64,000 bases of DNA from positions 124,001 through 188,000 of the forward strand of contig JACZJK010000020.1 in NCBI GenBank assembly GCA_014860575.1, in the 5' to 3' direction. The stretch's first letter is position 1; each line of letters begins with the position of its first letter. The position numbers and the translations under genes were made by a program. Positions 3,955 through 31,131 of the stretch are shown one piece after another. The notes under the pieces were generated by a model. It saw only the letters and a list, made by a program, of their open reading frames with translations. It did not search any database and was not told the DNA's origin. The stretch comes from Bacteroidales bacterium (lineage in GTDB: Bacteria > Bacteroidota > Bacteroidia > Bacteroidales > JAAYJT01).

Positions 3955-5139
3955 TCAAAACGAGTATTTCAGTGATGCGAACCACGACGATCCGGCTTCT
4001 TCAAAGATGGAATCATTTCCACCAATGAAAATCTGAGCGACAAAACCCAAATCAAGGTTGGTTACAACGGAGTAGCTTATACTGGGCATTATAAATCCAG
4101 CTTCAATATCCGGTAAAGCCATGATGGCCAGTCTGCCCTGTACAATGGTTGACAACGGATGCTGGGCGCTTAATGTGACAGCAAATTCGGAAAACATGAG
4201 GTTATCTGCCTGAAGTGGTTGCGTGATAAGCATGATTTTATCCGGTGTGCGTTTGTAACCTCCGTTATAAAGAAATTCAAGCACCACAAAAGTTCCGCTA
4301 CCAAACATGTAATCAACGCCGCTGGCAGCAACGAGGTTTCCGCGTTTAACACCTGCTCGCCGTTTGAGGTCGTAAAACCAGGTAGCTTCACCTTTGAAGC
4401 CGGCTCCGCCGATGTGGCCGGCCCAGCCGGCGCCCAAAGCAAGACGGTTGTTGTAATATCCGGCCAGGGTTTGAAAATCATAATTCCAGCGGTTGAGATT
4501 AATCATTATTGCTGCCACCATCTCTTCTTTTTTCCTGCCAGGACTTATGGCGAGTTGCGCCTTCGACATATCCCCAAAATAATGCTGCAACCTCAACGCA
4601 TCTGTTCCAGGACGTTCTGCATAATCAAAATCAAAAAATGAATAAGTGTTGAAGAGGTCGTTGGGGTTCGAAACCATGTTCACGCCCCAGTTGATGCGCT
4701 GCCGGCCAACACGCATTTGCCAGTTGCTTTGTTGCCAGTCAACATACAGGCGGTCAACCATGGAGTGGGCAATCCAGGAACCTTCATGCAGCCATGCAGA
4801 AGACATATCGAAATAGCTTGCGTCCATTTCAAGAAGATCCTTGAATATCAGGTTATTCTGAAACATTTTGCTGTAATAAACCATGTTGCGCCCTTCGGCA
4901 GCGAAATGGAGATCCTTTGTAATGTTCCATCTGAAGTTCAGGCGGTTCTGAAAAATATTCATGAATGAAGGATCAGTAAAACCTTTTCCAAATTGCAGCG
5001 CCGGCATTTCCTTCACATAACCACGAAATATTAACGGCGGATTCTCCCCCGAACCAAAAGTCTGCGCAGAAGTTATTGTAACTATAGCGAAAAACGCAAG
5101 CAAAACTGCTGTATTTTTTATGACTACTGTATTCTCCAT
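3955..5139 (-). CDS. Outer-membrane beta-barrel protein, last gene of the LolA-like/ABC operon
   Basis: About 394 residues. From the ATG at 5139 there is a signal peptide (NTAVLLAFFAIVTITSAQ), followed by alternating aromatic and polar strands ending in SLKYSF, a C-terminal aromatic residue typical of barrels. Motifs such as RLYVDWQQSNWQMRVGRQR and INWGVNMVSNPNDLFNTY recall the alginate-export/DUF1302-like porin group, where a conserved GRQ..WG segment lines the barrel. Upstream in-frame ATGs exist at 5172 and 5148, but the later start gives a more compact signal peptide. It follows the ABC ATPase gene on the same strand and is inferred to be the outer-membrane end of the same transport route. 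Confidence 0.75.
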   Translation of the reverse strand: MENTVVIKNTAVLLAFFAIVTITSAQTFGSGENPPLIFRGYVKEMPALQFGKGFTDPSFMNIFQNRLNFRWNITKDLHFAAEGRNMVYYSKMFQNNLIFKDLLEMDASYFDMSSAWLHEGSWIAHSMVDRLYVDWQQSNWQMRVGRQRINWGVNMVSNPNDLFNTYSFFDFDYAERPGTDALRLQHYFGDMSKAQLAISPGRKKEEMVAAIMINLNRWNYDFQTLAGYYNNRLALGAGWAGHIGGAGFKGEATWFYDLKRRAGVKRGNLVAASGVDYMFGSGTFVVLEFLYNGGYKRTPDKIMLITQPLQADNLMFSEFAVTLSAQHPLSTIVQGRLAIMALPDIEAGFIMPSISYSVVTNLDLGFVAQIFIGGNDSIFEEAGSSWFASLKYSF

Positions 5140-5274
5140 AATTCTCATCTGAATAATATCATTTCTTATCATACTTCAGAAGTACAGTGTAAGAAGTGAT
5201 CTCTTAGTCTCCCCACCTCTCCCTTTCTCCCTTTCTCCTTCTCCTCCGCCTTCTCCTCATCCTCAACCTTTCCT

Positions 5275-5964
5275 CTATCTCTCAAAATACTCATCCCGTG
5301 CCACGGCGCCATCCACCAGCGTTATCACCCTTCGTGCGCGATCAATCACACGTTGGTCGTGGGTGGAGAAAATGAGTGTTACTTTTTCTTCTTTGTTGAG
5401 TCTGGCCATGATATCGAGCAAGTTGAATGCCGATTCGGTATCCAGGTTGGCCGTAGGTTCATCGGCGAGGATAAATTTTGGCTTCGAAGCCAACGCCCTT
5501 GCAACCGCCACACGTTGTTGCTGCCCGCCCGAAAGTTTCGTGGGTCTCACATTCATCTTGTCTTCAAGCCCGACTTGTTTGAGCAGTTCAGTAGCCCTGG
5601 CTTCCATCTCAGCGGCGTTGGTTTTTTGCAGCAACATGATGAAAGAGACATTCTCCTTTGCGGTGAGAACCGGCAGCAGATTGTATGATTGAAACACAAA
5701 ACCAATATTGTGCAGCCTGAAGTCAATAAGTTTTGAATCGGAAAGCGCCGTGATGTCTGTATCATTGATAACGATTTTGCCCTCGGTTGGCTTATCGAGT
5801 CCGCCAATCATATTAAGGAAGGTTGTTTTACCGCTGCCTGATGGGCCTACCACTGCCGTGAATTCGCCTTTCTCAAAAGCCAGGTCAACTTTGTTCAATG
5901 CTCTTACGGGCAAGGATTTATCGTTGTAGATTTTTGTTAGCTGCTCAGTTTGTATGATTTTCAT
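5275..5964 (-). CDS. LolD/MacB-type ABC transporter ATP-binding protein
   Basis: This 229-residue ATPase has all the expected motifs: Walker A GPSGSGKTT (40-48), signature LSGGQQQRVAVARAL starting at 144, Walker B FILADEPTANLD from 164, and the H-loop FSTHDQ around 202. Size and motifs put it in the LolD/MacB/FtsE group, which works with FtsX-fold permeases rather than importers. It lies 25 bases after the second permease gene (5990-7213) and just ahead of the barrel gene. It is expected to power both permeases of the operon as a mechanotransmission-type machine in the inner membrane. Confidence 0.93.
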   Translation of the reverse strand: MKIIQTEQLTKIYNDKSLPVRALNKVDLAFEKGEFTAVVGPSGSGKTTFLNMIGGLDKPTEGKIVINDTDITALSDSKLIDFRLHNIGFVFQSYNLLPVLTAKENVSFIMLLQKTNAAEMEARATELLKQVGLEDKMNVRPTKLSGGQQQRVAVARALASKPKFILADEPTANLDTESAFNLLDIMARLNKEEKVTLIFSTHDQRVIDRARRVITLVDGAVARDEYFER

Positions 5965-5989
5965 GATCGTATAATTTTCTGATTGGATC

Positions 5990-7213
5990 TTATTCTTTTC
6001 TTATTGCTTCAGCGGGTTTCAGCCGTAATGCTTTCATAGCGGGGTAAATGGAAGTCAAAAATGCCGTGATGATCACCAACATTGTGAGCATCAGGAAAAA
6101 ATCTGCATTGAGGGATGGGTAAATCTTTGATGGAAACCCGAAACTATGGAGTGAGTCGCCTCCAACCTTTGCCAGATTGATTCCTGTACGGCCAAAGAAT
6201 TGCGTTGTTAAGAACCCAAACAACATGCCTCCCATAGCTCCCAGAAATGTAAGGAATGATGTTTCAAACATGATCATCCCAAATACTTTTTTGCGGTTCA
6301 TACCTACAGCCATGAGCATGCCCAGTTCATGAACGCGTTCGAAAACAGACATCAGCATTGTGTTCACCAAACCAAAAGCAAGGGCAAAAAGTATGATCGC
6401 CAAAATGATCATCAACATGGACTCGGACATTTCCTGCATATAACTGAGTTCAGGGGAAATCTCTGCCCAGGTGCGTACACTTAATCCGGGGAATCGTTGA
6501 CTGTAACTTTCGCTGAGGCCATTTACCGTTTCAAGGTCATGCGCAACAATTGCCAGTTCGTTGATGGTTTCATCATGCCCTATATAGCCTATGATGTCAG
6601 TTTGCAATACGTATATATTGCGTTCGTCCAACATAGTGTTGGCACTTTGAAAAATTCCTGCCACCCTGAATGATGCCGAAACCAGTTCTCCATCCTTGTT
6701 CTGAAACGTCAGCACCAGCCGTGAACGAATCTGCAATTTAGTTTTCTCAGCCAATTTTTTCCCGATAAGTACCGGATTCCTTCCGCTTTCAACGAAGTAA
6801 GTTCCTTCAAAAATATTTCGATCCAGTCCGGTTGTGTTGGCTTCGGCCAGCGGATCAATACCAATGATATTAATTCCACGTGTGAGTGTAGCGGTGGCAA
6901 GCATTCCGTTTACGATAGTGCGACCCGAAAAAGTTTTTATTTCAGGATCGGACGAAACGGCTGCCATTAGGGATTCCGATTCAGCGATACCATACTTCAC
7001 GTTATTGTCTTTCAGGAATTCGGGATTGTGTATTTGCAGATGGGAAACATGTTGCTCAATACTGGTTTTGAAGCGCTGATCAAGCAGTCCGAACATAAGC
7101 GCGCTTACGCTAACGCCTGCCCACAGCCCCAAAGTAATCGCAATGATCATCACCATGCTTCGCTTGGGATTGCGCCAGATATTGCGCCATGATATTTTCA
7201 GCAATGTTTTCAT
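5990..7213 (-). CDS. LolC/E-like (FtsX/MacB fold) ABC permease, second of two
   Basis: About 407 residues. It starts MKTLLKISWRNIWRNPKRS, an amphipathic N-terminus typical of this family, then one transmembrane helix, a periplasmic MacB_PCD-like domain (about 45-265), and three transmembrane helices in the FtsX domain (from about MLMIILAIILFALAFGL onward). It ends KALRLKPAEAIRKE, the usual C-terminus. A second in-frame ATG lies 18 bases upstream (7231). It is similar in layout, though not identical, to the permease at 7271-8497, so the pair could act as a heterodimer like LolC with LolE. Confidence 0.88.
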   Translation of the reverse strand: MKTLLKISWRNIWRNPKRSMVMIIAITLGLWAGVSVSALMFGLLDQRFKTSIEQHVSHLQIHNPEFLKDNNVKYGIAESESLMAAVSSDPEIKTFSGRTIVNGMLATATLTRGINIIGIDPLAEANTTGLDRNIFEGTYFVESGRNPVLIGKKLAEKTKLQIRSRLVLTFQNKDGELVSASFRVAGIFQSANTMLDERNIYVLQTDIIGYIGHDETINELAIVAHDLETVNGLSESYSQRFPGLSVRTWAEISPELSYMQEMSESMLMIILAIILFALAFGLVNTMLMSVFERVHELGMLMAVGMNRKKVFGMIMFETSFLTFLGAMGGMLFGFLTTQFFGRTGINLAKVGGDSLHSFGFPSKIYPSLNADFFLMLTMLVIITAFLTSIYPAMKALRLKPAEAIRKE

Positions 7214-7270
7214 TTTTTGTTTTATTTCCACGTTCGTATGCAGAATAAACCAGTGGCCTGGGATTTTTAA

Positions 7271-8497
7271 TTATTGTTGTTTCACTTCCACGATATTGAT
7301 CTTATACACCCGGTATATTGGGTACAATCCTACCAGGAATGCGAATGTCAGAACAATCATGGCCTGGTTCAGAAAAATATTCGGGTCAGAAGAAAAAGGC
7401 ATCAAGGGTTCAAAACCATAATCCAGCATGGATTCAGCCATTTCGCCTTTCAACTTAATGGGGTTGAAATGGAAATAAGCCACAATTGGAATTGCAGCGA
7501 TAATTCCCGCCAGCACACCGGTAAAAGAGATAAAAATTGATTCGAGAAAACATACCAGCGCCAGCCGCGACCGTTTCATGCCCAATGAAATAAGCATTGC
7601 AAACTCGCGCTGCCGCTCAATCATCATGGTAAGTATGGTTCCGAACAAGCCAAAGGTAATAACGATGTATAAGATCATCATCATGACTTTTGAGCCTGCT
7701 GTGTCGAATTCCATGAGCGCCAGCAGGTCTTTCAGCATTTGTTGCCACGTAAGCACGCTATACCATTCTGTGTCAATATTCTCACGAAGTTCAGCGGCAA
7801 GCTGTTCACTGGATCTTGGGTTCACCGGCATGATAATGAGAGAAGTAAGCCTGTTTTCGGCCATATAAAACCAGCGGGCGGTTTCAATGGTCATATAGAT
7901 GGCGTTGTTATTCATTTCAGGGATTTTCATATCAACCAGACCTTTGATCCTGTATTTTCCAGCAGCTGTTGAACCCTGGAAGCCCTGGCCAAGAAGAACG
8001 AGTGTGTCGCCCACGTTCACCGCCAGGATTCCTGCAAGGCCTTCGGCCAGCAAAATATCACCATCATCACGGTTCAGAAATTCACCTGAAACTAAGTTGT
8101 CAGTAAGATCGTTAAGCCTGATCTCAAGTTCTGGATCAATTCCCATCACCATTGTTCCACGTGTCTGGGTTTCGGTGGCCGCCAGGGCAAAGTTCTGAAT
8201 GCGGGGCACGGTGTAAGCAATATCGCTGCTGTATTCGTTAATTAAGTCTGTAAGCTGTTCGTCGAACAACAGACTGTTATCAATTGAAGGTTCTTCTTCA
8301 TACATTACATCCTGGATCTGGATATAACCGGTACTGTACTTCACCATGCTGTCAATCATGCGTTCGTACGATCCTCTTTCCATGGAATCGAAAACGATGG
8401 CAAGCAGCACCGCGAACAGCACTGAGCTTATAGTGATCATGGAACGCTTGCGGTTCCGCCATAAATTGCGCCAGGCCAGGATGAAGAGAAGTTTCAT
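7271..8497 (-). CDS. LolC/E-like (FtsX/MacB fold) ABC permease, first of two
   Basis: The 408-residue protein begins MKLLFILAWRNLWRNRKRS, has one N-terminal transmembrane segment, and a periplasmic domain with the family stretch GTMVMGIDPELE. Three C-terminal transmembrane segments follow (for example MMMILYIVITFGLFGTILTM). RQREFAMLISLGMKRSRL is the cytoplasmic coupling segment before the second helix. It lies between the LolA-like gene upstream and the second permease downstream on the minus strand with short gaps, as in an operon. The likely role is extraction of a lipid or lipoprotein from the inner membrane for handover to the LolA-like carrier. Confidence 0.88.
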   Translation of the reverse strand: MKLLFILAWRNLWRNRKRSMITISSVLFAVLLAIVFDSMERGSYERMIDSMVKYSTGYIQIQDVMYEEEPSIDNSLLFDEQLTDLINEYSSDIAYTVPRIQNFALAATETQTRGTMVMGIDPELEIRLNDLTDNLVSGEFLNRDDGDILLAEGLAGILAVNVGDTLVLLGQGFQGSTAAGKYRIKGLVDMKIPEMNNNAIYMTIETARWFYMAENRLTSLIIMPVNPRSSEQLAAELRENIDTEWYSVLTWQQMLKDLLALMEFDTAGSKVMMMILYIVITFGLFGTILTMMIERQREFAMLISLGMKRSRLALVCFLESIFISFTGVLAGIIAAIPIVAYFHFNPIKLKGEMAESMLDYGFEPLMPFSSDPNIFLNQAMIVLTFAFLVGLYPIYRVYKINIVEVKQQ

Positions 8498-8521
8498 GGT
8501 AAAAAGATTTTATTGATGCAA

Positions 8522-9283
8522 TTACCTGACGTTTGTAAGGTTTTGAAGCGTAAAAAAGTTTTGAGAAAGATCAATCTGATAATCAGCTTTTGTGGTTGTA
8601 AGAATGGTTTTGTGGCCGGGTTTGCTTGCCGGAATGATTTCAAGAACCGCCGGTACATCCCTGCCGCCCATGGTTTTTATGTCCTTGAAATTGATGGTGC
8701 TGGCCAGTTCGCCAAATTCATCAAAATTCTCAACCTTCACCGGCAGCATGTATTTTTTTGAGATCCAATAAACCACTTTGTCATACACAATAGGAGCATC
8801 GGGTTTCGGGATCATCTCAATCACATAGCATTCATGCCCGTCCATAGTTTCTGTCCGGAGCAAGGTGTGGGTGTAATCGTCAATGGTAGAAACCCCGCGT
8901 ACAAGGTCGTCGTTGGTCAGATCCGAACCCATCCAGGATTGCGACATCATGGAAGGCGGCATTTTTACCGTGCGGTCAATGCCGGGCACGTAGTTCCAGA
9001 TTTCATTGGCTCTTTTCAGGAAAGCGGTGCCCTGGTCGCGGGCTGGCGCTGTAATGAGGATAAGTGCATAATCTTCGCCGAGGCTCCATGATTTCATTGA
9101 GATTTCGCGGGTAAAGCGTGGCCTCACCGAAGTCATTGTCATTTCAGCGTAGGAAGCTTCGCCCCGCATTTTATCTTCCATCTGGCGGATAATTTCTCGG
9201 GGATCTTGTGCTTTCAGGGTCAGGAAAGGTAGAATGATGATCGACAACAAAAAGACGGTTCTTACTATTTTGAGGATTTTCAT
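8522..9283 (-). CDS. LolA-like outer-membrane lipoprotein-sorting protein (periplasmic carrier)
   Basis: About 253 residues from the ATG at 9283: a signal peptide (VRTVFLLSIIILPFLTLKAQ) and then a LolA/LolB-fold domain. DPREIIRQMEDKMRGEASYAE at the N-terminus, EIWNYVPGIDRTVKMPPSMM and SWMGSDLTNDDLVRG in the middle match the outer-membrane lipoprotein-sorting family (PF17131-like), which folds as an open half-barrel that holds acyl chains. An open frame extends to 9385, but the promoter lies inside that extension, so 9283 is the start. It is the first gene of a five-gene unit with two permeases, an ATPase and an outer-membrane barrel. Confidence 0.85.
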   Translation of the reverse strand: MKILKIVRTVFLLSIIILPFLTLKAQDPREIIRQMEDKMRGEASYAEMTMTSVRPRFTREISMKSWSLGEDYALILITAPARDQGTAFLKRANEIWNYVPGIDRTVKMPPSMMSQSWMGSDLTNDDLVRGVSTIDDYTHTLLRTETMDGHECYVIEMIPKPDAPIVYDKVVYWISKKYMLPVKVENFDEFGELASTINFKDIKTMGGRDVPAVLEIIPASKPGHKTILTTTKADYQIDLSQNFFTLQNLTNVR

Positions 9284-9354
9284 AGTACAAGATATTATTT
9301 TCAACTTGCTCCGGTTCAAAAGCCTGGATGCAAAATTGATTGATTCTAGCAGGA

Positions 9355-9386
9355 CAAAGATATAGTCGTTGATTGCATCAGCCAAA
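9355..9386 (-). promoter_or_regulatory. Promoter of the LolA-like/ABC/barrel operon
   Basis: Read on the minus strand, TTTG at 9386-9383, a 20-base spacer and TATCTTTG at 9362-9355 match both elements of the Bacteroidota consensus (TTTG, 17-23 bases, TAnnTTTG). It is about 70 bases before the start at 9283 and is the only good promoter seen for the five genes. Confidence 0.7.
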
Positions 9387-9546
9387 CTTTCGGCTGTGAA
9401 CTACGGAAATCAGCAGGTGAATAACGGAAAAGCAGGCCTGGATCAGACCCGTGGTGAAAAGTAGAATTCTAAATCTTGAGCACACATTGAAGACTCATTT
9501 TGCCCCTAAAGAGGATGTCTCAAAACCCCTGATTTTGCTGTTTTTT

Positions 9547-9580
9547 GTCATTCTTCTCCGCCGCGGCGGATCAGGATGAC
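9547..9580. repeat. 34-base imperfect palindrome (intergenic)
   Basis: Two 17-base arms meet at CCGCCG/CGGCGG with 14 of 17 positions paired, and the outer ends are GTCAT/ATGAC. It lies between the divergently placed end of the GIN-domain gene and the promoter region of the LolA-like operon. It looks like a dispersed intergenic palindrome rather than a terminator, because no T tract follows on either side at the right place. Confidence 0.6.
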
Positions 9581-9631
9581 AAGATTCAAGCTGTTGAGAT
9601 TTTTTGGTGAGGTTGCTAACTTTGAGCCATT

Positions 9632-10372
9632 TTAATTGGCATTGATAATTTTTCCCGATCCGGTGATCACCGAGCTAATGTCAGGATAATCCTTGTATTT
9701 CACCACTCCGCTGCCGCTGATGTTCACATCCAGCCGGTCAGAAACTCTTACTTCGCAGTTTCCTGAACCGCTCACTGTGATATTGGTACGTTCAGTATAA
9801 AACGGAAATGAGTAAATATTGCCCGATCCGCTGATTTCGATATTATGTTCATAAGCCTCGCCTTCGATCCAAATGCTTCCGGAACCCGAAACCCTGCTAT
9901 TGGCCATCGCGGTGATCAAACCCACATCTATGGAGCCTGATCCGCTCAGGTTCAGGTCAATATCAGCAACATCCAGCATATTTGTTGAAATGATTTCACC
10001 GGAGCCACTTACCTTCAGCTTCGAGAAATCGGGAGCGGAGATAAACACTTCAATGTCGTCGTTCCTGACATTGAGGCAATGGTCGTTTTCGATGATGAGC
10101 GTACTTCCGTTCACATAAGTAAGTATTTCAGGAAGCAGGTTGTCGAATGTTTTCACTTCCACGCTAATATTATCAGCTTGCGTAATGGTTACGGTTGCAG
10201 GAACCCTGAGGTCAACCGATATAAAATCGGGGGTGTTGCGTGTTTCGGTGAAAACGGTTCCTTTGCCCCTTATGCAGTTGAAGTCGTCGGGATCGCAGGA
10301 TGAAAATGTGAAACTGATGAGCCCTGTAATGACTAACATTAAAAAGACGTTGGGTGTAAGTTTTGTTTTCAT
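9632..10372 (-). CDS. GIN-domain (DUF2807) lipoprotein
   Basis: This 246-residue protein has a signal with a lipobox (FTFSSC, Cys26) and then the putative auto-transporter adhesin head domain, GIN. The diagnostic feature is a run of repeated SGSG turns (KVSGSGEI, NLSGSGSID, RVSGSGSIW, EISGSGNIY, TVSGSGNCE, NISGSGVVK, VITGSGKI) spaced 20-24 residues apart, which build a right-handed beta helix. These proteins are abundant lipoproteins in Bacteroidota with no settled function. It has no obvious operon partner and no good TAnnTTTG box just upstream. Confidence 0.9.
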   Translation of the reverse strand: MKTKLTPNVFLMLVITGLISFTFSSCDPDDFNCIRGKGTVFTETRNTPDFISVDLRVPATVTITQADNISVEVKTFDNLLPEILTYVNGSTLIIENDHCLNVRNDDIEVFISAPDFSKLKVSGSGEIISTNMLDVADIDLNLSGSGSIDVGLITAMANSRVSGSGSIWIEGEAYEHNIEISGSGNIYSFPFYTERTNITVSGSGNCEVRVSDRLDVNISGSGVVKYKDYPDISSVITGSGKIINAN

Positions 10373-10588
10373 AGCGAAGGTTTTATTTTACGGAATCAAG
10401 CAATTCCAATGCCAAAAACATTAGGTTTTATGTTTGACGAAATTATTAACAAAACGTTACTTTAAATTTCCTGGCATTGCGAAATTCTATCACTGCTTTA
10501 GTGTGAAAGTCAGCCTTTGCAGATGATGATGCGTGAAAATTACCATCTTTTGCAAGAAAAGTCCTATCCCCTGGCCTCCGTTCCGAAG

Positions 10589-10596
10589 TACTTTTG
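10589..10596 (+). promoter_or_regulatory. Bacteroidota -7 box (TACTTTTG) before the lectin/adhesin gene
   Basis: TACTTTTG fits TAnnTTTG about 70 bases ahead of the ATG at 10668. The rest of the 295-base intergenic region 10373-10667 holds no gene that I can support. Confidence 0.45.
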
Positions 10597-10667
10597 AACA
10601 GCTTTAATTAAGGAGGAAGCCGAAAATCCTTTTAACAGAGTAGGCATGTCTCAAACATTTTATTTTT

Positions 10668-13172
10668 ATGAAAAAACAATTACTGAAACCTATTTTAATA
10701 GGTTGTCTTTTAGCACTCAGTTTCACCGGTTGGTCGCAATATGTGATCAACGGAAATGCGATCAGCCTCGGCAACGATTGCTTTCGATTAACACCGGCCT
10801 TGACGTTTCAGGCTGGATCTGTCTGGTTTCAGAACAAGATTACTCTTAACTCCGATTTTGAGGTTACCGGTACGCTGAATTTTGGAATACTGGATGCAAA
10901 TGGTGCCGATGGAATAGCTTTTGTTTTGCAACCGGTTTGCAATGGATTGGGAACCGCTGGAGGAGGAATTGGATACCAGGGTATCTCACCTTCGCTTGCA
11001 GTGGAATTTGATACCTGGCAGAATGTAAGTGATCCGTTTGCAGATCATATCGCATTGATGAGAGATGGGGTAGTGAATCATAACACTCCAAACAATCTGC
11101 AAGGCCCCATCCCAGTGCCAAACCTGGAGAATGGCGCGAATCACCCGTATATAATCAAATGGGACGCTACCACTCAAAACATTAAGGTTTGGCTGGATGG
11201 TATACTAAGGATTGATTATACAGGTGATGTCGTCAGTGATATTTTCGGCGGTAATGCTAATGTTTTCTGGGGATTTACGGCTGCCACCGGAGCTGCGGTC
11301 AACAACCAGTCTGTTTGTATCGCTACTGTTGATTTTACTGAAGAAGGATCATTTATTGTAACTAGTCCTACCTGCCCGGATTATGATAATGGCGCCATTG
11401 ATTTCAACCCGGCGGGAGGAATTGCCCCATTCACTTTCTCATGGAGCAATGGGGAATCAACCGAGGATATCTCAGGCCTTACAGCAGGAACCTACACCCT
11501 TACCGTTACTGACGGCAACGGTTGCCAAAGTAATTATTCCATCGAAGTAACAAATGAACCGGATGTTGAAAATCCTGTCATCACCTGCCCGGACGACATC
11601 ACACAATCGGCTGATGCCGGTGAGTGTTCTGCAACAGTAGCTATAACACCTGCAACAGCCGCCGACAACTGCGGCGATCCTGCCATTGAAGGCGTAAGAA
11701 GCGATGGATTGGCATTGTCCGACCCTTATCCGCTGGGAATAACAACCATCACATGGACTGCAACTGATGATGCCGGAAACACAGACGAGTGTGTTCAGCA
11801 AGTAGTTGTAACTGATGATGAACCACCCACAATCACTTGCCCGGATGACATTGTTATGGGCAATGACCCCGGGGAGTGCGGAGCCGAGGTAGATTATGAT
11901 GTTCTTTTCGGTGATAACTGTTCGGTGGCTTCGTTGCCTGGCTTTACCCTTATAGGCACAATGGATAACACCAGCTATTTTCTTTCAGATGAATCATTTA
12001 CATGGCTTGATGCCTTTGCACATTCGCAGTTAAATGTTGGCCACATGGCTACCATTACTTCAGCCTCGGAAAATGATTTTGTTGTAAACGCACTCATTTC
12101 CAATGGCTTTGCCGCAAGCAACCCATGGATCGGCCTGACCGATGAAGAAACCGAAGGTGTGTGGAAATGGGTCACAGGAGAACCCTTTGCATACAGTAAC
12201 TGGCACGCCGGTGAACCCAATAACCTGGGAGGCGAAGATTATGTGAATTATTATAATATTGGCGGGAACATTAGATGGAATGACCTTCCAAATTCTCTTC
12301 CACCTTTCTGGACACCAAATCCTTATATCCTGGAAGTTAAAAATACGCACCTGGTGTTATTATCAGGATTGCCTTCAGGCGAGATGTTTCCGAAAGGAAC
12401 TACTACTGTCACTTACCAGGTTGTTGATGCTTCAGGAAACACAGCCGAATGCTCATTCACAGTCACTATCGAGGATGGCTGTACCTATTCACAGGGTTAC
12501 TGGAAAACACATTCGGAGTTTGGCCCTGCACCTTATGATGAAACCTGGGCATTGCTACCTGACGGAGCCAGCACGATTTTCTACCTGAGTGGAAAATCAT
12601 ATTATGAAGTAATGTGGACTGCACCTAAAGGTAATGCTTATTACATTTTGGCTCATCAGTTCATAGCTGCCGAATTGAACTTCCTTAACGGCGCCTGCCA
12701 TGAAGATGCCCAGGCTGCCGTTGCAGAAGCAACTGCTTTGTTTAACATGTACACACCTGCTCAAATCGCATCGTTGAAAGGGAATAACGCGCTTCGCCAG
12801 CAGTTCCTTGCCCTTGCCTCATTACTTGATGACTATAACAATGGCATGATTGGTCCCGGACATTGTGATGGCGGCGAGAAGTCTTCGGCTGTATATTTTG
12901 GTTCTGACGAAGCAGCAGAGATGATGGTTTATCCTAATCCTGTATCAGAAATTGGAACTGTAGAGTTTACTGCAACAGAAGATACAAGGACTACCATTGA
13001 GCTTTACAACCTGGTTGGACAGCGTATGGGAATATTGTTTGATGAAGTTGCGCAGGCAGGAACGACCTATCAGGTTGTTCTGGATGCTAAATCATACAAT
13101 AAAGGATTTTATATTGTTGTAATGAAGAGCGATAACAGTATTCAAAAGGAAAAAGTCACTATCAGCTACTAA
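10668..13172 (+). CDS. T9SS-secreted multidomain lectin/adhesin
   Basis: The 834-residue protein is a secreted mosaic. A signal peptide (1-23, ending GWSQ) precedes an L-type lectin-like domain (about 25-225, with GADGIAFVLQ and LAVEFDTWQN). Then come an SprB-type repeat (about 232-297, PFTFSWSNG and GTYTLTVTDGNGC) and a HYR domain (about 300-383). A second HYR domain begins at about 385 but is split: a C-type lectin-like domain (about 425-560, with NPWIGLTDEETEG, WHAGEPNN and WNDLP) sits between DNCSVASLPG and LLSGLPSGEMFPKGTTTVTY. A YWKTH-containing module (605-735) and a type IX sorting domain (about 750-834, VYPNP to VTISY) end the protein. It should be exported across the outer membrane, attached to the cell surface or released, and bind glycans. 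Confidence 0.9.
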   Translation: MKKQLLKPILIGCLLALSFTGWSQYVINGNAISLGNDCFRLTPALTFQAGSVWFQNKITLNSDFEVTGTLNFGILDANGADGIAFVLQPVCNGLGTAGGGIGYQGISPSLAVEFDTWQNVSDPFADHIALMRDGVVNHNTPNNLQGPIPVPNLENGANHPYIIKWDATTQNIKVWLDGILRIDYTGDVVSDIFGGNANVFWGFTAATGAAVNNQSVCIATVDFTEEGSFIVTSPTCPDYDNGAIDFNPAGGIAPFTFSWSNGESTEDISGLTAGTYTLTVTDGNGCQSNYSIEVTNEPDVENPVITCPDDITQSADAGECSATVAITPATAADNCGDPAIEGVRSDGLALSDPYPLGITTITWTATDDAGNTDECVQQVVVTDDEPPTITCPDDIVMGNDPGECGAEVDYDVLFGDNCSVASLPGFTLIGTMDNTSYFLSDESFTWLDAFAHSQLNVGHMATITSASENDFVVNALISNGFAASNPWIGLTDEETEGVWKWVTGEPFAYSNWHAGEPNNLGGEDYVNYYNIGGNIRWNDLPNSLPPFWTPNPYILEVKNTHLVLLSGLPSGEMFPKGTTTVTYQVVDASGNTAECSFTVTIEDGCTYSQGYWKTHSEFGPAPYDETWALLPDGASTIFYLSGKSYYEVMWTAPKGNAYYILAHQFIAAELNFLNGACHEDAQAAVAEATALFNMYTPAQIASLKGNNALRQQFLALASLLDDYNNGMIGPGHCDGGEKSSAVYFGSDEAAEMMVYPNPVSEIGTVEFTATEDTRTTIELYNLVGQRMGILFDEVAQAGTTYQVVLDAKSYNKGFYIVVMKSDNSIQKEKVTISY

Positions 13173-17792: not shown

Positions 17793-20081
17793 TCATTTAA
17801 CCTTGCACTTCATCAATTCGGTGAGGCTTGCGGTAAAAGGAATGGCAGACGCTCTACCAGGGGAATAATTTGTGAGTTTTTTGAAACGCCATTTAACATT
17901 CTCAAATTCAAAATCTGTTACCGCTTCTATCTGAATCACTAAATAGTTATCCTTTGCCTTAGAAAGATTTGGATAGCCTTTTCTTCTTAAATCATCTTGT
18001 GAAAAAACTCTTGGACCCCTACTCACAATTCTCCATAAATCACCAGAAGCAAGATCTCCGGCTGAATGTAATAAGAGGTATTTCGCACTAACGGTTTCTT
18101 TATCAAGAACTAGAGAGCCCTTTCCTGAGCCCATTCTGAAATTATAAAGCTTATTGCGAACTATCCAACTGTATTGTTCTGGGGATTTGTAATAACCGAT
18201 AAGTACGAAGGTGTCATCTGGAATTAAGTCCCTATTTATATCGTAGGTCTCAGGTAATGCTTCATTAATTTCATTTGAAGGGTCGGGAGGTTTCTTATAA
18301 ATATCAAATGTTCTAAAGGCCTGTTTTTCTCTTTGTGAAGCCCTGTTAATGAAATGCTTCAATATGTCCAAGATGAACGCTTTTAATTCTCCAATTCCGC
18401 TATCCATTTTTGAAGGACGAACCGGAAAGGCACCTAAACCCGGAATAATTTCGTGAAAACCTTTTTGCTTGATGGATTTATCTCCGGGATATAACACGTA
18501 TGATCCACCAGTTCTTCTGATTGCGTCTTTATAAGCATGCATTTTGAGAAGGTCGGCATTTTTATAAATACCTTTCCGGTTTTCGTATTTTTCTTCTCTT
18601 AGTTCCTCTTCACTGCACTCTTCGCGAAGTTCAAAAAGATTGGCAACTTTATATTTTGCATCAAAATGAATGTGAACAATCAATTCTTGTTTTTCAGCAT
18701 CCATTTCTGAAATTCCTACGGGCCAGACCGAAAGTGTATAATCGGGTCGAAGCGTCGTTGTCCAACTTCCTAATTCGGGGTACTCCTTTTTTCCGCTAAA
18801 AGTACGATTGTAGTTGAAACGTATGTTAAGGTTTCTTGATCCAGAATTAAAAACACCATTGAGTGCCGTATATTTTCCTTGTCTCAATTGAAGATTTAAA
18901 CCATCTGGAGTTTCTTTAATCAGTTCGGCAATATCTTTGGGTTCAATTTGAAAAATGGATTGAAACAGGTCTAGAAGTTTGAAAAACAACCAGTATTCAT
19001 ATAGCGTTGCAATATCCTTTTTGCCTCCACTATAGATATCATCACCGCCAGTCCATATCAATTTGGCGGCAAGATCGAACATTAACCACACTCGTAATAC
19101 TTCGCGATAACCTTCCTTTCGCTGAAGCACCGGACTGTTTAGTCTCAGTGTGGTGGGTCTTGAAATTGACTTAAGTACGGCGTGATGCAAGTGAGATTCC
19201 AACAATCGTATTTGAATCAGCGATTCTTTCTCCAGTTTGCTACTCTTAGTAGCCGCTTTGTTTATGTCCGTACAAAACTTCAGAAAAACTTCCAGTGCGT
19301 GTTTAACAAAGCGATTTTCGGGAGTATCAACCGTATCGGATTTGCGAACAGATGTAACCCGATCGGGAAGAGCGATTAAACCATAACTCCTTAAATGATG
19401 TGTGTCGGGCAGCATTGTTCGGTTACCTTGTTTCAAGAGCTCTTTTAAATTGGCATTTGAAAATCTTCTGGATTGACGAATGTCTCTTAATTCTGAGATT
19501 TCAGTCCATTTGGTAACCGGTGCAGTTACAATTCGGTGAATGGCCTCAGAAAATTCATCCGTGCCAATAACCGATTTAATAAAAGCGAACTTTTGATATA
19601 GAGTCTGACTATCTTTCGTGTAGTCTATTTCAAAGTGCTGGGAAACCGGAGAGTTAGCTTGCAATAACAAGTCAGTACATTTTTCGGTAATCAACTCAAG
19701 CATGTCGCGATAATCGTCCCTATAGCCAGATTTTATAGACTGAACTTCAAGTTCAACGATAGCTAGTTCTTCAACTTTGCCATTTTCAATCACTGGCAAC
19801 GAAAGAGTTCCAACAAAAATATTCGGGGATATTGTCCCTGTATGTTTGTTTCTTGAATGAGGCTGAATAATTTGGTCACCAATATTCCCTAATAAATAAT
19901 CTGGATCACTAAATGCGAAATCATAATAGCAGCCTTCTACAAGTTGAAATCTCGCTTCGTTATTTTCCATAGCGCTTCCATCCGCATCAAATAGCGTATC
20001 AGATTTGCGGGAATCTATGTAAAGCCGTAAACCTTCCTTGATCGAATCAAGGCTGATAACTATGGAGTTATTAGATTTCAT
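17793..20081 (-). CDS. McrC-like DUF2357 nuclease subunit
   Basis: The 762-residue protein lies 3 bases after the McrB-like gene. Its middle part matches DUF2357, and residues 445-476 carry a PD-(D/E)xK nuclease core: LRPDYTL (Asp447) followed by IHFDAKYK (Asp474, Lys476). An acidic residue in YEYWLFFKLL (about 361-370) could be the upstream member of the site. The N-terminal 200 residues are probably a beta-rich regulatory domain and the last 150 residues look like a separate module. Such proteins are the nuclease partners of McrB-type AAA+ proteins in type IV restriction systems that cut modified DNA. Confidence 0.82.
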   Translation of the reverse strand: MKSNNSIVISLDSIKEGLRLYIDSRKSDTLFDADGSAMENNEARFQLVEGCYYDFAFSDPDYLLGNIGDQIIQPHSRNKHTGTISPNIFVGTLSLPVIENGKVEELAIVELEVQSIKSGYRDDYRDMLELITEKCTDLLLQANSPVSQHFEIDYTKDSQTLYQKFAFIKSVIGTDEFSEAIHRIVTAPVTKWTEISELRDIRQSRRFSNANLKELLKQGNRTMLPDTHHLRSYGLIALPDRVTSVRKSDTVDTPENRFVKHALEVFLKFCTDINKAATKSSKLEKESLIQIRLLESHLHHAVLKSISRPTTLRLNSPVLQRKEGYREVLRVWLMFDLAAKLIWTGGDDIYSGGKKDIATLYEYWLFFKLLDLFQSIFQIEPKDIAELIKETPDGLNLQLRQGKYTALNGVFNSGSRNLNIRFNYNRTFSGKKEYPELGSWTTTLRPDYTLSVWPVGISEMDAEKQELIVHIHFDAKYKVANLFELREECSEEELREEKYENRKGIYKNADLLKMHAYKDAIRRTGGSYVLYPGDKSIKQKGFHEIIPGLGAFPVRPSKMDSGIGELKAFILDILKHFINRASQREKQAFRTFDIYKKPPDPSNEINEALPETYDINRDLIPDDTFVLIGYYKSPEQYSWIVRNKLYNFRMGSGKGSLVLDKETVSAKYLLLHSAGDLASGDLWRIVSRGPRVFSQDDLRRKGYPNLSKAKDNYLVIQIEAVTDFEFENVKWRFKKLTNYSPGRASAIPFTASLTELMKCKVK

Positions 20082-20084
20082 CCC

Positions 20085-21962
20085 TTACGCTTCAGCGAAA
20101 CTTGTGAAGCCATTATCAACGGCTCCTTTATACATGCGTGTTATTTTCTCCAAAGATAGAGGGTAAAGCACTTCGCCACCGTTGAAATCAAAATCGTCCT
20201 TTTCAAAAACATCCTTTTCAATTTTTACATCCCCCTCAATACAAAACTTACCTAGGGTTGCCAGAACAGGACTGAGTTTTCTGCGCGATCCGTGAAGTTT
20301 TGGCAATAGCTTTTGCATTATGGCTATGTCAACTTTGTCTTTGGTCGTTAAGGCATTCTCTAATACACTGAGGTGATGAATAAGTCTAAGAATTTCCGTT
20401 GCAGTTCGGTAACCGAATTCAGCGCCGGTTTTCTTTAATTCACCGAAAAATCGCACTAGGGTTTCATTGATTTCGTCAACGTCTTTAGTTGAAAATGACT
20501 TATTTCTAGCCATCTCAAGAAAGCTTGTGGCCATAGCAGAACCTTGGTTTTTCAGCGCATTCATGTTTAGATCTCTGATGTTTTTCAAGAAGTTAGTTAT
20601 TTCATCCTTAGTTAACCGGAATTCAATGGTGTTGGCTCTGTCAAGCACTTTTGGGCTGAACATATTGGTGGTTTCATCAATATTCACTGTACCAATTATA
20701 AAAAGATTGGAGGGAAGAGGAAGTTTAGCCGGAACTCCGTTTTCAACAGTTCCTTCCGCGTAAAGCGGTATTTCTTCTTTTGATTCCATTGCGCTTAAGA
20801 AATCAGCGAAATAGCGTTCAACCTGGCTCAGATTCATTTCATCCAATATCAAAAAGTAGGGTTTATCCGAGTTTTCGGCTTTGCCCGCATCTATGATTAA
20901 ATCCAAAACTCCGCTATCGGGCTTTACATATTGCTTTGGATTTAATGCGTTTGGATAACCAAGCAAAGGCTCACGATTGGTCCAATCAGCGCCTACGGGG
21001 ATAATACGGTATTGACTTTCGTCCTGACAAATCCATTGTGTAAAAGCTTGAGCCAGCTTAGTCTTTCCGGAGCCTGACAAACCAGTAAGGATGACAAAAG
21101 GCTTTGTTATTAATGAAGCAGAAAAGCGTAAGATCAAAGTATTATTGAAAAACAAACCTGCGTTATTGACAGCATCATTCAATTTAGAGTAAGTAAATTC
21201 TTTTGCTGGACGCTTGGGGCCATAAATATTAGAGTTTTTATAATAGTCTAAAAGCTTTATTAGATCAGCATCTACCTTTTGTTCATTTAACTCTTTAGGA
21301 TCATAAACACGATAAACATAAGAACCCCCATATCTTTCTGGAATCCCTAAATCCTTCTCTTCAAAATATTCGCGAATAGTTTTTTTGTCAGATAATCTCC
21401 AACTTTCATTTGGTTGTGTGGTTTCACTAATACCATAGGCTAGGATTAATAGATCTTTATTTTTAAAATAAAGATAAACTGGGTAGATTCCATTCTGAAC
21501 AGTATTTGGTGGTTCCAGAAATGCGATCCAAGGGACTCTTGCTGGAGTTCCTTGTCCAAAACCAACCTTAAGCTTAAGCCCATAAAAATCTGATAAGTAA
21601 TTGGATGTAGTAAGAGCATTGGTTTTCGTTTGAACTAAGAATTTATTCAGCTCTGCAAAGTAGCTTAGCTTTTTTGTGGCACTTTGCTTGATAGCTTCAT
21701 TAAGTCCTATCTTGCCTTCAATAACATTATATCCCTTCTTTTTCAAATAATCTTTCGCTTGGATAGCATTATAGGAATTATCCAATTCTTTACCGGTGGC
21801 TATTTTAAAAGCTTCACTTATAACATATTTCGGAGGGAGATGCTTGCCATTAACCACCAGAAAATACTCTCGTGATAATCTTTTTCGCGGAATATCTTCA
21901 GTTTGAAGAATTTGTATAGCATTATCTATATGCTCTCGATCAATGATGGCTGGAATTGTCAT
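20085..21962 (-). CDS. McrB-like AAA+ NTPase of a type IV restriction system
   Basis: The 625-residue protein has three parts. Residues about 5-80 (KHLPPKYVISEAFKIATGKELD) resemble the small N-terminal head of ScoMcrA-like proteins. Residues about 95-250 resemble the MrcB_N (DUF3578) domain. The AAA+ motor occupies about 280-560, with Walker A GLSGSGKTK (294-302), Walker B FLILDEMNLSQVERYFADF (from 370) and TVNIDETTNMFSPKVLDRAN (from 425) in the sensor region. The last motif is the common non-enteric variant, so nucleotide choice (GTP or ATP) is uncertain. Together with the DUF2357 gene it forms a complete two-gene defence locus. Confidence 0.87.
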   Translation of the reverse strand: MTIPAIIDREHIDNAIQILQTEDIPRKRLSREYFLVVNGKHLPPKYVISEAFKIATGKELDNSYNAIQAKDYLKKKGYNVIEGKIGLNEAIKQSATKKLSYFAELNKFLVQTKTNALTTSNYLSDFYGLKLKVGFGQGTPARVPWIAFLEPPNTVQNGIYPVYLYFKNKDLLILAYGISETTQPNESWRLSDKKTIREYFEEKDLGIPERYGGSYVYRVYDPKELNEQKVDADLIKLLDYYKNSNIYGPKRPAKEFTYSKLNDAVNNAGLFFNNTLILRFSASLITKPFVILTGLSGSGKTKLAQAFTQWICQDESQYRIIPVGADWTNREPLLGYPNALNPKQYVKPDSGVLDLIIDAGKAENSDKPYFLILDEMNLSQVERYFADFLSAMESKEEIPLYAEGTVENGVPAKLPLPSNLFIIGTVNIDETTNMFSPKVLDRANTIEFRLTKDEITNFLKNIRDLNMNALKNQGSAMATSFLEMARNKSFSTKDVDEINETLVRFFGELKKTGAEFGYRTATEILRLIHHLSVLENALTTKDKVDIAIMQKLLPKLHGSRRKLSPVLATLGKFCIEGDVKIEKDVFEKDDFDFNGGEVLYPLSLEKITRMYKGAVDNGFTSFAEA

Positions 21963-28764: not shown

Positions 28765-31131
28765 TTATTCATATTTCAAGGCCTTCACCGGATTGGCAAC
28801 AGCGGCCCTGATGGCCTGAAACGATATGGTTGCTATGGCTATTATCAGGGTGAGGATAGCGGCTATAGCAAACATCCACCATTGCATGTTTATGTGATAG
28901 GCGAAATTTTCGAGCCAGCGGTTCATAAAATACCAGGTAACAGGCCATGCAATAAGGTTGGCAATTAACACCCATCTTAAAAAATCACGGGTCAGTAAAA
29001 GTACAATGCCTTTTACCGACGAACCGAACACTTTACGAATGCCCACTTCTTTGGTTCTTTGCTGTGTTGTAAACAAAGCCAGCCCCGACAAACCAAGGCA
29101 GGCAACAAAGATTGCAAGGCCGGAGAAAAACAAAAACAGCTTGAATAAACGCTGTTCTTTAGCATATAGCCGGCCAATAGAATCATCAAGAAAACTGTAA
29201 GAAAACGGAAAGCCCGGTGCAAAGGATTCATAAACCTTTTCAATGCGATTAAGTGTTTGTGTGAGGTTGTGTCCACTTAACTTTACATTGATATAATTGC
29301 TCCAACCGGGCATATAAGCCAACACCAGCGGGCCAATACCATGATGCACCGGCAGGTAGGAGAAATCTTTTACTACCCCAATTACAGTGCCGTTCCAGAA
29401 CCTTACCCCAATTGGATTTTCCAGATTAAAACGTTTTACAGCTGTTTCGTTCAGAATATAAGTATTGTCGCGGTCGGTTGGCATTTTTTCATCAAAAGCC
29501 CTGCCTTCAACAATCTCAAAACCATAAACATTCAGGCATTCGGGATCGAGCGTGAGTGCATTCACCCGGCGTTCAACTGTATCAACTATTCTTCCCCATC
29601 CCATGCCAATACGGCCGGGTACACTGCTGGAGATTCCGACATATTCAACTCCCGGAATTTGCTTCAGTTCACTTTTAAACGATTCAAAATCGCGGGGGAT
29701 ATGTCCTGAGCTTGAGAAATAAATAATGTTGTTGCGGTCGAACCCAAGGTCTTTGTTACGGGCATACTCCATCTGACTGTAAATAACAATGGTTGAAAGG
29801 ATAATCGCTGTGGAAACTGCAAACTGAAAAACAATCAGGATTTTCCTGAGCGTGCTGCCGCGCTTTCCTTTAGTGGCTTCACCTTTCATTACCACAATGG
29901 GTTCAAACCGTGCAAGATAAAAGGAAGGATACAATCCGGCAAGCAATCCGGTTGCAATGGCAAATCCAATGATGATAGCAATAACCACCGGACTCGTATA
30001 AAAATTAAATTCTATTCCCGATTGGGTAAGCTTGTTGAATTCAGGAACCATAATCTCAAACAATACCAGGGCTAGTATAAGCGCCACAAGGCTGAGCAGT
30101 ACCGATTCGGTCAGGTATTGCCTGACAAGCATATTACGCGTGCTTCCCATTACTTTTTTAAGACCCACTTCGCGTGCACGCCTGAAAGCCATGGCTGTGC
30201 TCAGGTTAATGAAATTGATAACGGCTATGAACAAAATAAACACTGCAATGGAAATATAAATCAGTATAAAAGACAGGTTGCCTTTATCCAACCCATCATA
30301 AGGAATGTGCCGGTTAAAATAAATGTCAGATATCGGGCGTAAAAGAAAACCAAGTTCCACATCAGTAAAACCAAGCCTCTCACTTGCCATCCTGTCCATC
30401 CCGGCTTCAAATTTATTGCTGACAGCACTTATGTCGTGATCTTTATGAAGAAGTGCCCAGGTATAGTAATTCCAGTTATTCCAGTCGTTCAGCATGGCCG
30501 AATCGCGCATAATTTGTGGTAATGCGTGGAAAGGGATCACCGCTGTAGGTTTTATAATGCTGTTGTCAGCTGGATCGACCATGACAGCGGTAACTTCAAC
30601 TGTGAAATCGTTGTTTATCACCAGGGTTTTACCAATAGGATGCTCATCTTCAAAAAACTTTTTTGCTTCGCTCTCCGTTAGAACAATACTCATCGGATTT
30701 ACAAGCGCAGTAGCCGCGTTGCCATGGATCAGTCCAAAGCTGAAGATATCGAAAAAGCTACTGTCAGCGTAATACAGGCTTTTTATCCATAATTGCTTTT
30801 CATCAATTTTCGCCAGTGTATTGCCGCCGCCTACATCTACACGGCAGATTTCAAGAGCTTCGGGTAATACTTCCCGGGCAAAGCTTGCTACCATGCTTGC
30901 CGTAATGGCGTACTGTGCAGTTTCAATGCGGTAAATCTCATTATAATTCTTGTGAAATTTATCAGTTTGAAATTCCATGTATACATAAACTGCAATAAGC
31001 AGAAACAACGCCATGCCCATGCCCAGTCCTATTATATTTACCAGGGTATAACCTTTCTGCCTCATCAGGCTGCGGATGGAGAATTTAATATTGTTAGTCC
31101 GGAAGGCCATAAGGATATAATTTGTGAACAT
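28765..31131 (-). CDS. MacB-like ABC permease (large, two FtsX domains), orphan
   Basis: The 788-residue protein starts MFTNYILMAFRTNNIKFSIR and has the double-permease layout common in Bacteroidota. It has an N-terminal transmembrane segment, a MacB_PCD-like periplasmic domain, three transmembrane helices (about 280-420), a second periplasmic domain with PGVEYVGISSSVPGR and FNLENPIGVRFWNG, and a final set of helices. RTKEVGIRKVFGSSVKG is the cytoplasmic FtsX-loop signature, and it ends NPVKALKYE. No ATPase gene is adjacent, so it must use one encoded elsewhere. Such permeases often act in antimicrobial peptide resistance or envelope stress; the specific role here is unknown. Confidence 0.9.
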   Translation of the reverse strand: MFTNYILMAFRTNNIKFSIRSLMRQKGYTLVNIIGLGMGMALFLLIAVYVYMEFQTDKFHKNYNEIYRIETAQYAITASMVASFAREVLPEALEICRVDVGGGNTLAKIDEKQLWIKSLYYADSSFFDIFSFGLIHGNAATALVNPMSIVLTESEAKKFFEDEHPIGKTLVINNDFTVEVTAVMVDPADNSIIKPTAVIPFHALPQIMRDSAMLNDWNNWNYYTWALLHKDHDISAVSNKFEAGMDRMASERLGFTDVELGFLLRPISDIYFNRHIPYDGLDKGNLSFILIYISIAVFILFIAVINFINLSTAMAFRRAREVGLKKVMGSTRNMLVRQYLTESVLLSLVALILALVLFEIMVPEFNKLTQSGIEFNFYTSPVVIAIIIGFAIATGLLAGLYPSFYLARFEPIVVMKGEATKGKRGSTLRKILIVFQFAVSTAIILSTIVIYSQMEYARNKDLGFDRNNIIYFSSSGHIPRDFESFKSELKQIPGVEYVGISSSVPGRIGMGWGRIVDTVERRVNALTLDPECLNVYGFEIVEGRAFDEKMPTDRDNTYILNETAVKRFNLENPIGVRFWNGTVIGVVKDFSYLPVHHGIGPLVLAYMPGWSNYINVKLSGHNLTQTLNRIEKVYESFAPGFPFSYSFLDDSIGRLYAKEQRLFKLFLFFSGLAIFVACLGLSGLALFTTQQRTKEVGIRKVFGSSVKGIVLLLTRDFLRWVLIANLIAWPVTWYFMNRWLENFAYHINMQWWMFAIAAILTLIIAIATISFQAIRAAVANPVKALKYE

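Follow-up and report, generated by a model that had tools for sequence, protein, structure and literature searches.

Molecules are known to cross the periplasm by protein bridges, through adaptor tunnels or, in a few cases, on soluble carriers. A design of pump, carrier and channel is known mainly with a kind of motor other than the one described here. In Castellaniella defragrans, AmeABCD comprises an RND/HAE3 pump, a DUF1329 protein of the LolA fold, a DUF1302 outer-membrane protein and a COG4447 protein; when the system is deleted, cells tolerate monoterpenes less well and accumulate more Nile Red (PMC6394551). A Pseudomonas putida system joins PP_0765/PP_0766, which are needed for growth on Tween20, with PP_2018/PP_2019; its DUF1302 barrel and DUF1329 protein are predicted by co-folding to be in contact and the latter is also predicted to contact an efflux transporter, but these contacts were called weak (PMC10866462). 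The seven-gene BBJ23–BBJ29 cluster, known from Borrelia only, unites a LolA-like protein, a MacB/LolE-like ABC permease, an ATPase and an outer-membrane barrel (PMC13078400). Operons of Porphyromonas gingivalis (PG1175–PG1181) and Prevotella intermedia, strongly up-regulated under low iron or low hemin, contain TetR, ABC ATPase genes, a LolA-like protein and hypothetical proteins (PMC10434189, PMC10470040). Finally, YbbAP-TesA is a type VII ABC system for which extraction of hydrophobic compounds is proposed (PMC12646458).

The locus described here lies in a window of 64,000 nt (the whole stretch analysed) from a Bacteroidales bacterium (GCA_014860575.1, contig JACZJK010000020.1, forward-strand positions 124,001–188,000). 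It is an operon of five ORFs on the minus strand (3955–9386 of the window), in the order carrier, permease, permease, ATPase and barrel; all five genes of the initial annotation are present and Pfam matches bear out their families. We lean towards reading it as an accessory trans-envelope exporter whose cargo would be a lipid or a hydrophobic or amphiphilic small molecule; it would then be an ABC-powered equivalent of RND/DUF1329/DUF1302 systems, AmeABCD among them. As in AmeABCD, a LolA-superfamily periplasmic protein, an outer-membrane protein, here putatively of the DUF1302 type, and an inner-membrane motor are encoded together, and the carrier passes the DUF1329 threshold. Unlike AmeABCD, the window motor is a two-permease ABC transporter, RND/HAE3 (MMPL) motors being confined to sister systems; the five genes include no fourth soluble protein, and the barrel falls below the DUF1302 cut-off and is shorter (405 versus 605 residues). 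The P. putida system differs in having its pump at a separate locus and in its link to Tween20 growth (PMC10866462), the Borrelia cluster in its homodimeric permease and two TPR proteins and probably in its Omp85-type barrel (PMC13078400), and the P. gingivalis and P. intermedia operons in including an MMPL pump (PMC10434189, PMC10470040). MacAB-TolC and Aat likewise couple a type VII or LolCDE-like ABC motor to an outer-membrane exit (PMC7943197), but their adaptor and TolC-type duct have no counterpart among the five genes, from which the Lnt-like acyltransferase and cargo gene of Aat are also absent. The RND/DUF1329/DUF1302 precedent was given correctly in the initial annotation (PMC6394551); its statement that no characterised system has exactly this set holds for the literature found, although close analogues (Borrelia BBJ23–BBJ29 and AmeABCD) have been published.

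From its sequence and the homologue alignment, the carrier most likely starts at the ATG at 9283 rather than at 9385/9386. The starts chosen for permease 2 (ATG 7213) and the barrel (ATG 5139) draw on sequence and homologue alignments, and with the revised starts the intergenic gaps are 24, 57, 25 and 135 bp. The assignment of a single well-matched promoter to the operon is weak: a sigma-70 scan near the operon start gave 9-of-12 sites at best, and across the region such sites show no excess (21 observed versus 25.2 in shuffles). The Bacteroidota-type promoter consensus is TTTG-N18-TATATCTTTG. A weak candidate for it was found by pattern match at 9355..9386 on the minus strand; the pattern has four occurrences in the window versus 2.2 expected, a count reached by 15 of 100 shuffles.

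The carrier (8522..9283) is a LolA-like, DUF1329-related periplasmic protein, with Pfam matches to LolA_like (PF17131, 189.5 bits) and DUF1329 (32.1 bits; cut-off 23.1) and profile matches to the solved structures 9tp6, 3buu, 4z48 and 3bk5. Canonical LolA (PF03548) is absent from its Pfam matches, and its score against the canonical LolA model NF053572 is 12.8, under the cut-off of 100. Judged by eye, it has an ordinary signal peptide, and a lipobox pattern was found in none of 21 carrier rows, that of L013 being without its N-terminus.

Permease 1 (7271..8497) and permease 2 (5990..7213) are inner-membrane subunits of the FtsX/LolC-E type (FtsX, 57.7 and 61.8 bits, respectively); permease 2 also has a MacB_PCD periplasmic domain (30.1 bits) and matched LolF, LolC and LolE chains with phmmer. 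The ATPase (5275..5964; ABC_tran, 130.3 bits) is of the LolD/DevA type, scoring 238.1 against the LolD model (cut-off 307.75) and 216 against DevA (cut-off 295.8). FtsX-type permeases with a LolD/MacB-type ATPase give the pump part the make-up of a type VII (FtsX/LolC-E/MacB) ABC transporter. AF2 predictions were made for two proteins, the barrel and permease 1; the permease 1 model (pLDDT 88.9) lies nearest to LolE/LolC (Z range 29.8–24.9), with Z values of 29.8 for LolE, 27.5 for LolC, 22.9 for the heme exporter HrtB and 18.1 for MacB.

This resemblance and the LolA-like carrier, along with the export of an acylated protein by the LolC/E/D-like ABC part of Aat (PMC7943197), would suit a specialised lipoprotein route, in which the ABC part would extract a subset of lipoproteins, the carrier would ferry them and the barrel would insert or flip them in place of LolB. 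We consider such a route unlikely. The operon shares with LolCDE–LolA–LolB the ABC fold, two permeases and a LolA-fold carrier, but it is accessory, has neither lipoprotein acceptor nor Hook, and its outer-membrane gene encodes a barrel, not LolB. Its permeases and ATPase score far under the curated LolCE and LolD cut-offs, the permeases reaching 93.9 and 126.8 on the LolC/E model TIGR02212; its cut-off of 362.45 is strict for this phylum, since the better LolC/E candidates elsewhere in the same genome (218 and 175) miss it too. A PF03548 LolA is also encoded elsewhere in this genome, relatives often carry TetR upstream and no cargo or acyltransferase gene recurs. The proposal that the barrel stands in for LolB in lipoprotein sorting is therefore unsupported.

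The Hook by which LolC docks LolA spans residues 167–179 in Escherichia coli (PMC10865981). At this position permease 1 has a conserved GQGY/FxGxxAAGKY hairpin in the alignment. Anchor to anchor, the hairpin measures 22 residues in 20 of 21 permease-1 rows (L014, whose row contains a gap, gives 18) and in all 17 permease-2 rows, versus 28 in LolC and 27 in LolE of E. coli (a hand count from the alignment), and its turn in the permease 1 model has five residues. By hairpin length in the alignments, and by the turn in the permease 1 model, a LolC Hook was found in neither permease. Length alone is not diagnostic because LolE, with 27 residues, does not bind LolA in vitro; since it varies even among LolC/E candidates, it is weak evidence on its own (in this genome the candidate in L091, aligned pairwise with E. 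coli LolC, keeps approximately the full hairpin length, and that in L092 is shorter). Scores, Hook, distribution and better candidates elsewhere in the genome were together the grounds for rejecting a canonical Lol operon. In the part of the F. johnsoniae study considered here, a surface lipoprotein reporter stays exposed without LolA/LolB homologues, which neither requires nor excludes the window system (PMC11885536).

The barrel (3955..5139) is a distant DUF1302 relative, scoring 15.2 bits (cut-off 23.2) in Pfam; by hhalign it aligns (probability 93, E 2.8e-7) with another barrel encoded in this genome, whose DUF1302 score of 41.5 bits lies above the cut-off. No solved structure was matched by sequence at E up to 1. 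The AF2 model (pLDDT 86.4, pTM 0.80) has OprD/Occ porins and AlgE as its nearest folds (VIA Z of 23.7 to OprD and 22.2 to AlgE); Omp85 and FadL have no row among the fold matches listed. A lipobox pattern occurs in one of 24 barrels (L025). The nearest solved folds among the matches listed are mostly channels for hydrophilic solutes, which speaks against the exporter reading.

OprD/Occ porins are uptake channels, and the barrel might thus admit a hydrophobic nutrient that the carrier would bring to the inner membrane for loading by the ABC part. The requirement for PP_0765/PP_0766 on Tween20 (PMC10866462) could also mean uptake and so counts against export. Nevertheless, we give uptake only a slim chance: the type VII ABC systems that PMC12646458 describes extract or export, and AmeABCD mutants gain Nile Red (PMC6394551).

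Conservation of the set was assessed across 296 genomes from the phylum. This carrier type occurs in 66 of them and the barrel in 66 of these 66, a co-occurrence whose p value includes no adjustment for the relatedness of the genomes; in 61 of the 66 both lie on one contig and strand. The 230 genomes without this carrier type include two with the barrel (G005 and G087; loci L096 and L107), in which an MMPL pump of the RND type stands beside a barrel related to that of the window (107 and 103 bits), with a more distant LolA-like carrier; we read this as an exchange of motor, not as unrelated company. Seeding with the carrier gave 58 loci, in 53 of which the five genes are complete and in order, each time with an ABC motor. 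Two of the other five are cut by contig ends and three are exceptions, with a displaced barrel (L073 and L084) or with broken permeases and no ATPase match (L069). The order is also found in 21 of 23 barrel-seeded loci, the carriers of L009 and L013 being cut by the contig start, but these loci match by construction, as the five search profiles were built from the window and L004–L026; the 58 carrier-seeded loci do not. The remaining barrel-seeded loci, L012 and L022, begin at the barrel and within permease 2.

An automatic gene caller recovers the exact five-gene string in 42 of 71 loci, a figure kept low by intervening spurious ORFs and long frames. These 71 are what remained of 81 loci after the loss of ten without a called carrier ORF scoring above 200 bits. 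By domain coordinates, the L085 barrel falls after the ATPase (sorting by frame start puts it before), and the permeases of L006, L014, L021, L026 and L058 appear as two pieces. L005, a locus from a Gemmatimonadota MAG that may be mis-binned, also has the five genes. L017 comes from Flavobacterium luminosum HXWNR70, a host of the operon that can be cultured.

The displaced barrels (two of 58) and the broken L069 locus are what could be cited for a chance or merely positional cluster of genes with independent functions, but even in the exception loci the barrel is in the genome. We hold this explanation to be scarcely credible: the clustering is not chance, because every one of the 66 genomes with the carrier also has the barrel, and in 61 the two lie together on one contig and strand. 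As initially proposed, the five genes belong to a single system. Searches from both ends found no regular lack of barrel or carrier, and the barrel was otherwise seen only alongside an RND pump that has a LolA-like carrier of its own. The system is accessory, with a patchy distribution (66/296).

Two of the 71 loci have no upstream ORF; among the other 69, the ORF directly upstream has TetR_N in 34; relatives with an upstream TetR gene include L018 and L031. A TetR profile built from these 34 matches 34 of the 69 upstream ORFs versus two of 307 further ORFs lying up to three genes away in either direction. The MarR-type match of L056 is below the Pfam cut-off. The gene directly upstream of the window operon is a DUF2807 gene, not TetR, and no TetR was found directly upstream of L004, the nearest relative of the window copy; both observations and the 35 of 69 loci without a TetR gene there count against the exporter reading, as does the lack of a recurrent substrate, biosynthetic, cargo or acyltransferase gene in the neighbourhoods of the 71 loci (clusters judged by eye from representatives). 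A recurring cargo gene was rejected, the recurrent neighbours other than regulators resembling, by eye, histidine-biosynthesis and general chromosomal genes and being read as positional.

Two sister systems are encoded in the same genome, one ABC-driven (L028; TetR–barrel–ATPase–permease–permease–carrier) and one RND-driven (L029; MMPL–PLA1-like–carrier–DUF1302 barrel). The L028 barrel aligns with that of the window at a probability of only 62 across 141 columns, and close kinship of the two was rejected. Of 31 lower-scoring carrier places 20 were examined, of which 11 have ABC and nine RND partners, with a profile-recognised barrel in 19 of the 20 and a TetR-type ORF in the stretch in 11. In the carrier tree the system types separate with two changes, the minimum possible; the window is represented there by L004, truncated or absent carriers (at least L009, L012 and L022) were dropped and L089 was omitted because it represents one and the same locus as L094.

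The PLA1-like ORF of the RND sister operon, below the Pfam cut-off at 16.8 bits (cut-off 27), would fit a role in lipid homeostasis or remodelling, with a phospholipid or other envelope lipid carried from one membrane to the other, inwards or outwards; acyl chains are also handled by LolA-fold carriers and type VII ABC machines, according to passages of PMC12646458. We regard this role as improbable, in that the TetR/MarR gene adjoining many relatives and the patchy distribution fit a conditional exporter better than a housekeeping system.

The exporter reading is supported by the co-occurrence of carrier and barrel, the order retained in 53 of 58 loci, the upstream TetR genes, the ABC and RND sister systems, the partners found at the lower-scoring carrier places, the MMPL-linked barrels of L096 and L107, the carrier tree and the precedents of AmeABCD and YbbAP-TesA. 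We infer that the products would act as a complex in which the pump part would extract a greasy molecule from the inner membrane, the LolA-fold carrier would ferry it over the periplasm and dock on the barrel, and the barrel would admit it to the outer membrane or conduct it to the far side; the TetR- or MarR-type product encoded upstream in many relatives would probably sense the substrate as its ligand.

ABC and RND motors swap around related carriers and barrels, which suggests that carrier and barrel are the core of the machine. More tentatively, and with some doubt on our part, the PF17131 systems may form a class of 'shuttle exporters', in which a soluble LolA-fold carrier, and not an adaptor tunnel, joins an exchangeable motor to an OprD/AlgE-like barrel made of a single chain, frequently with a TetR-type ligand sensor in control. 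The motors of such a class would be two kinds of type VII ABC transporter, or RND/MMPL pumps. The window operon, the form seen most often in the sampled genomes, would be the first clear case in this class of an ABC motor combined with such a barrel. The passage of hydrophobic molecules over the aqueous periplasm in Gram-negative bacteria is a subject of current interest, and a widespread and conserved five-gene set that brings together motor, carrier and exit opens the soluble-carrier route to tests in culturable Bacteroidota.

The five-gene operon occupies window positions 3955-9283 on the minus strand and runs from the LolA-like carrier through permease 1, permease 2 and the ABC ATPase to the barrel; gene order and Pfam matches bear out this arrangement as initially annotated, with a sub-threshold trace of DUF1302 in the barrel. 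The carrier matches LolA_like at 189.5 bits and also DUF1329 at 32.1 bits (cut-off 23.1), both permeases match FtsX and the ATPase matches ABC_tran; operon proteins match NCBIfam models for LolCE and LolD with scores under the cut-offs. Start codons were reset to ATG 9283, 7213 and 5139 from homologue alignments. Of the extent first proposed (3955-9386), the 3955 end was retained and the other end was moved with the carrier start; evidence for the well-matched promoter described ahead of the operon proved weak. A repetitive purine-rich stretch (AGGAGAAGG...) lies between ATPase and barrel (5195-5275). Elsewhere the window contains a protein that combines legume-lectin-type, HYR, C-type lectin and SprB domains with a Por_Secre_tail sorting domain (10668-13172), a McrBC-like defence candidate of two genes (MrcB_N/AAA protein and DUF2357/PD-(D/E)XK nuclease; 17793-21962) and a further FtsX/MacB_PCD permease of 788 aa with two matches per domain (28765-31131).

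A barrel-seeded search of genome contigs gave 23 loci, 21 with all five genes in order (the carrier of L009 and L013 being cut by the contig start); the other two begin at the barrel (L012) or within permease 2 (L022), and L023 has an additional permease-1 copy. In a panel of 296 genomes from the window's phylum, inferred to be Bacteroidota from the names of related loci, the carrier profile matches 83 genomes at E up to 1e-20 and 66 at 244 bits or more. Outside the window's genome, 58 of the 65 loci with at least 244 bits were sampled, and one further locus, from G200, was obtained separately. The complete order was present in 53 of these 58; the remainder are interrupted by contig ends (L063 and L072), have broken permeases and no ATPase match (L069) or have the barrel 8.5 kb away (L073) or on a different contig (L084). 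The initial annotation had suggested a search for this order elsewhere; made from both seeds, it bears out the five genes as one system. The barrel profile matches 68 genomes of the panel, namely all 66 carrier genomes and two others (Fisher p about 2.5e-64, uncorrected for kinship of the genomes). In these two (G005, locus L096; G087, locus L107) the barrel has as neighbours a TetR-type gene, an MMPL pump and a more distant LolA-like carrier. At L065 and L068 the barrel is followed by extra permease genes from the same two families. The operon is accessory, because the barrel is present in six of 21 genomes (the window's own and 20 relatives) and two genomes of the same genus lack it.

The window's genome has three PF17131 genes and two sister systems. 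L028 (C56:82000-97000, locus 4819-11512) is a second complete ABC/LolA-like/barrel set that differs in gene order from the window operon: TetR, barrel, ATPase, permease, permease and carrier, followed by a metallo-beta-lactamase-fold gene. L029 (C36:14000-26000, locus 5095-10426) comprises an MMPL pump, a carrier and a DUF1302 barrel (41.5 bits), with a PLA1-like ORF (match under cut-off) between pump and carrier. Among 20 of the 31 lower-scoring carrier places, ten were of the L028 type, nine of the RND type and one an ABC variant (L098); the barrel was recognized by profile at 19, the twentieth (L109) having a 398-aa ORF without a Pfam match at its position, and a TetR-type ORF lay within the stretch at 11. 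Two changes of system type suffice for the carrier tree (99 rows), in which the RND and L028 groups each form one side of a branch (support 98/88 and 100/98, respectively) and L098 sits on a long branch adjoining the L028 group. At L100 (1-10312), a single contig has an L028-type and a window-type system arranged head to tail, preceded at the upstream end by a TetR-type gene; the contig end cuts the final barrel.

The barrel model (pLDDT 86.4) has 19 strands of at least three residues (DSSP), and the homologue alignment contains a conserved segment, GRQRINWG...NPND...DFDY.ERPG. Its nearest solved folds are OprD/Occ porins together with chitoporins, at Z about 23.7, and AlgE, at Z 22.2; Foldseek placed OmpM1 and other porins on top, AlgE among them (E about 1e-10 to 1e-9). 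OprD and AlgE are 18-strand barrels. By itself, a modelled fold of this kind is a poor guide to the substrate. Among structures of the LolA superfamily, the carrier profile matches 9tp6, 3buu, 4z48 and 3bk5, and the permease-1 model (pLDDT 88.9) has a LolE/LolC-like fold. The Hook of LolC, placed at aa 167-179 in PMC10865981, is absent from both permeases as judged by hairpin length: the stretch between the anchors spans 22 residues in 20 of 21 permease-1 rows and all 17 permease-2 rows, versus 28 in LolC (counted by hand). Permease 1 has a conserved GQGYxGxxAAGKY turn at this place. The control was mixed, the long hairpin being kept in one of two LolC/E candidates of the window's genome and not in the other.

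At 34 of 69 loci, TetR_N occurs in the ORF that immediately precedes the carrier; a TetR profile built from these ORFs matches 34/69 at that position versus 2/307 elsewhere within three genes. MarR-type winged-helix genes occupy the position in some other loci (PF12802 at seven of the 69; an ORF cluster of eight members, of which the one checked was under the Pfam cut-off). No TetR gene was found directly upstream of the window's operon, where the gene is DUF2807.

The operon is less likely to serve a specialized lipoprotein. Against this, the genome encodes a PF03548 LolA as well as two LolC/E candidates outscoring the operon permeases (218 and 175 versus 126 and 93 bits, all under cut-off), the operon is accessory and often adjoined by TetR in relatives, and no cargo gene recurs among the neighbours of operon loci. 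What the data show is the parts and their order, their retention together, the folds of the barrel and permease 1 as modelled, and regulator genes upstream in relatives. In the favoured reading, export of a hydrophobic small molecule or lipid, the ABC part would extract the substrate from the inner membrane, the carrier would shuttle it onward and the barrel would hand it on, with a ligand-sensing repressor probably governing the system in many species. Precedents are AmeABCD (PMC6394551), PP_0765/0766 (PMC10866462), YbbAP-TesA (PMC12646458), BBJ23-29 (PMC13078400), Aat (PMC7943197), P. gingivalis and P. intermedia operons of the MMPL/LolA-like type, which respond to iron or hemin (PMC10434189, PMC10470040), and F. 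johnsoniae LolA/LolB (PMC11885536). Within open-licence PMC papers, preprints excluded, no description of the five-gene set was found, in keeping with the initial statement that no characterized system with exactly these parts was known; the closest ones described are those of Borrelia and Ame. The combination proposed here is an ABC motor with a LolA-like shuttle and an OprD/AlgE-like exit.
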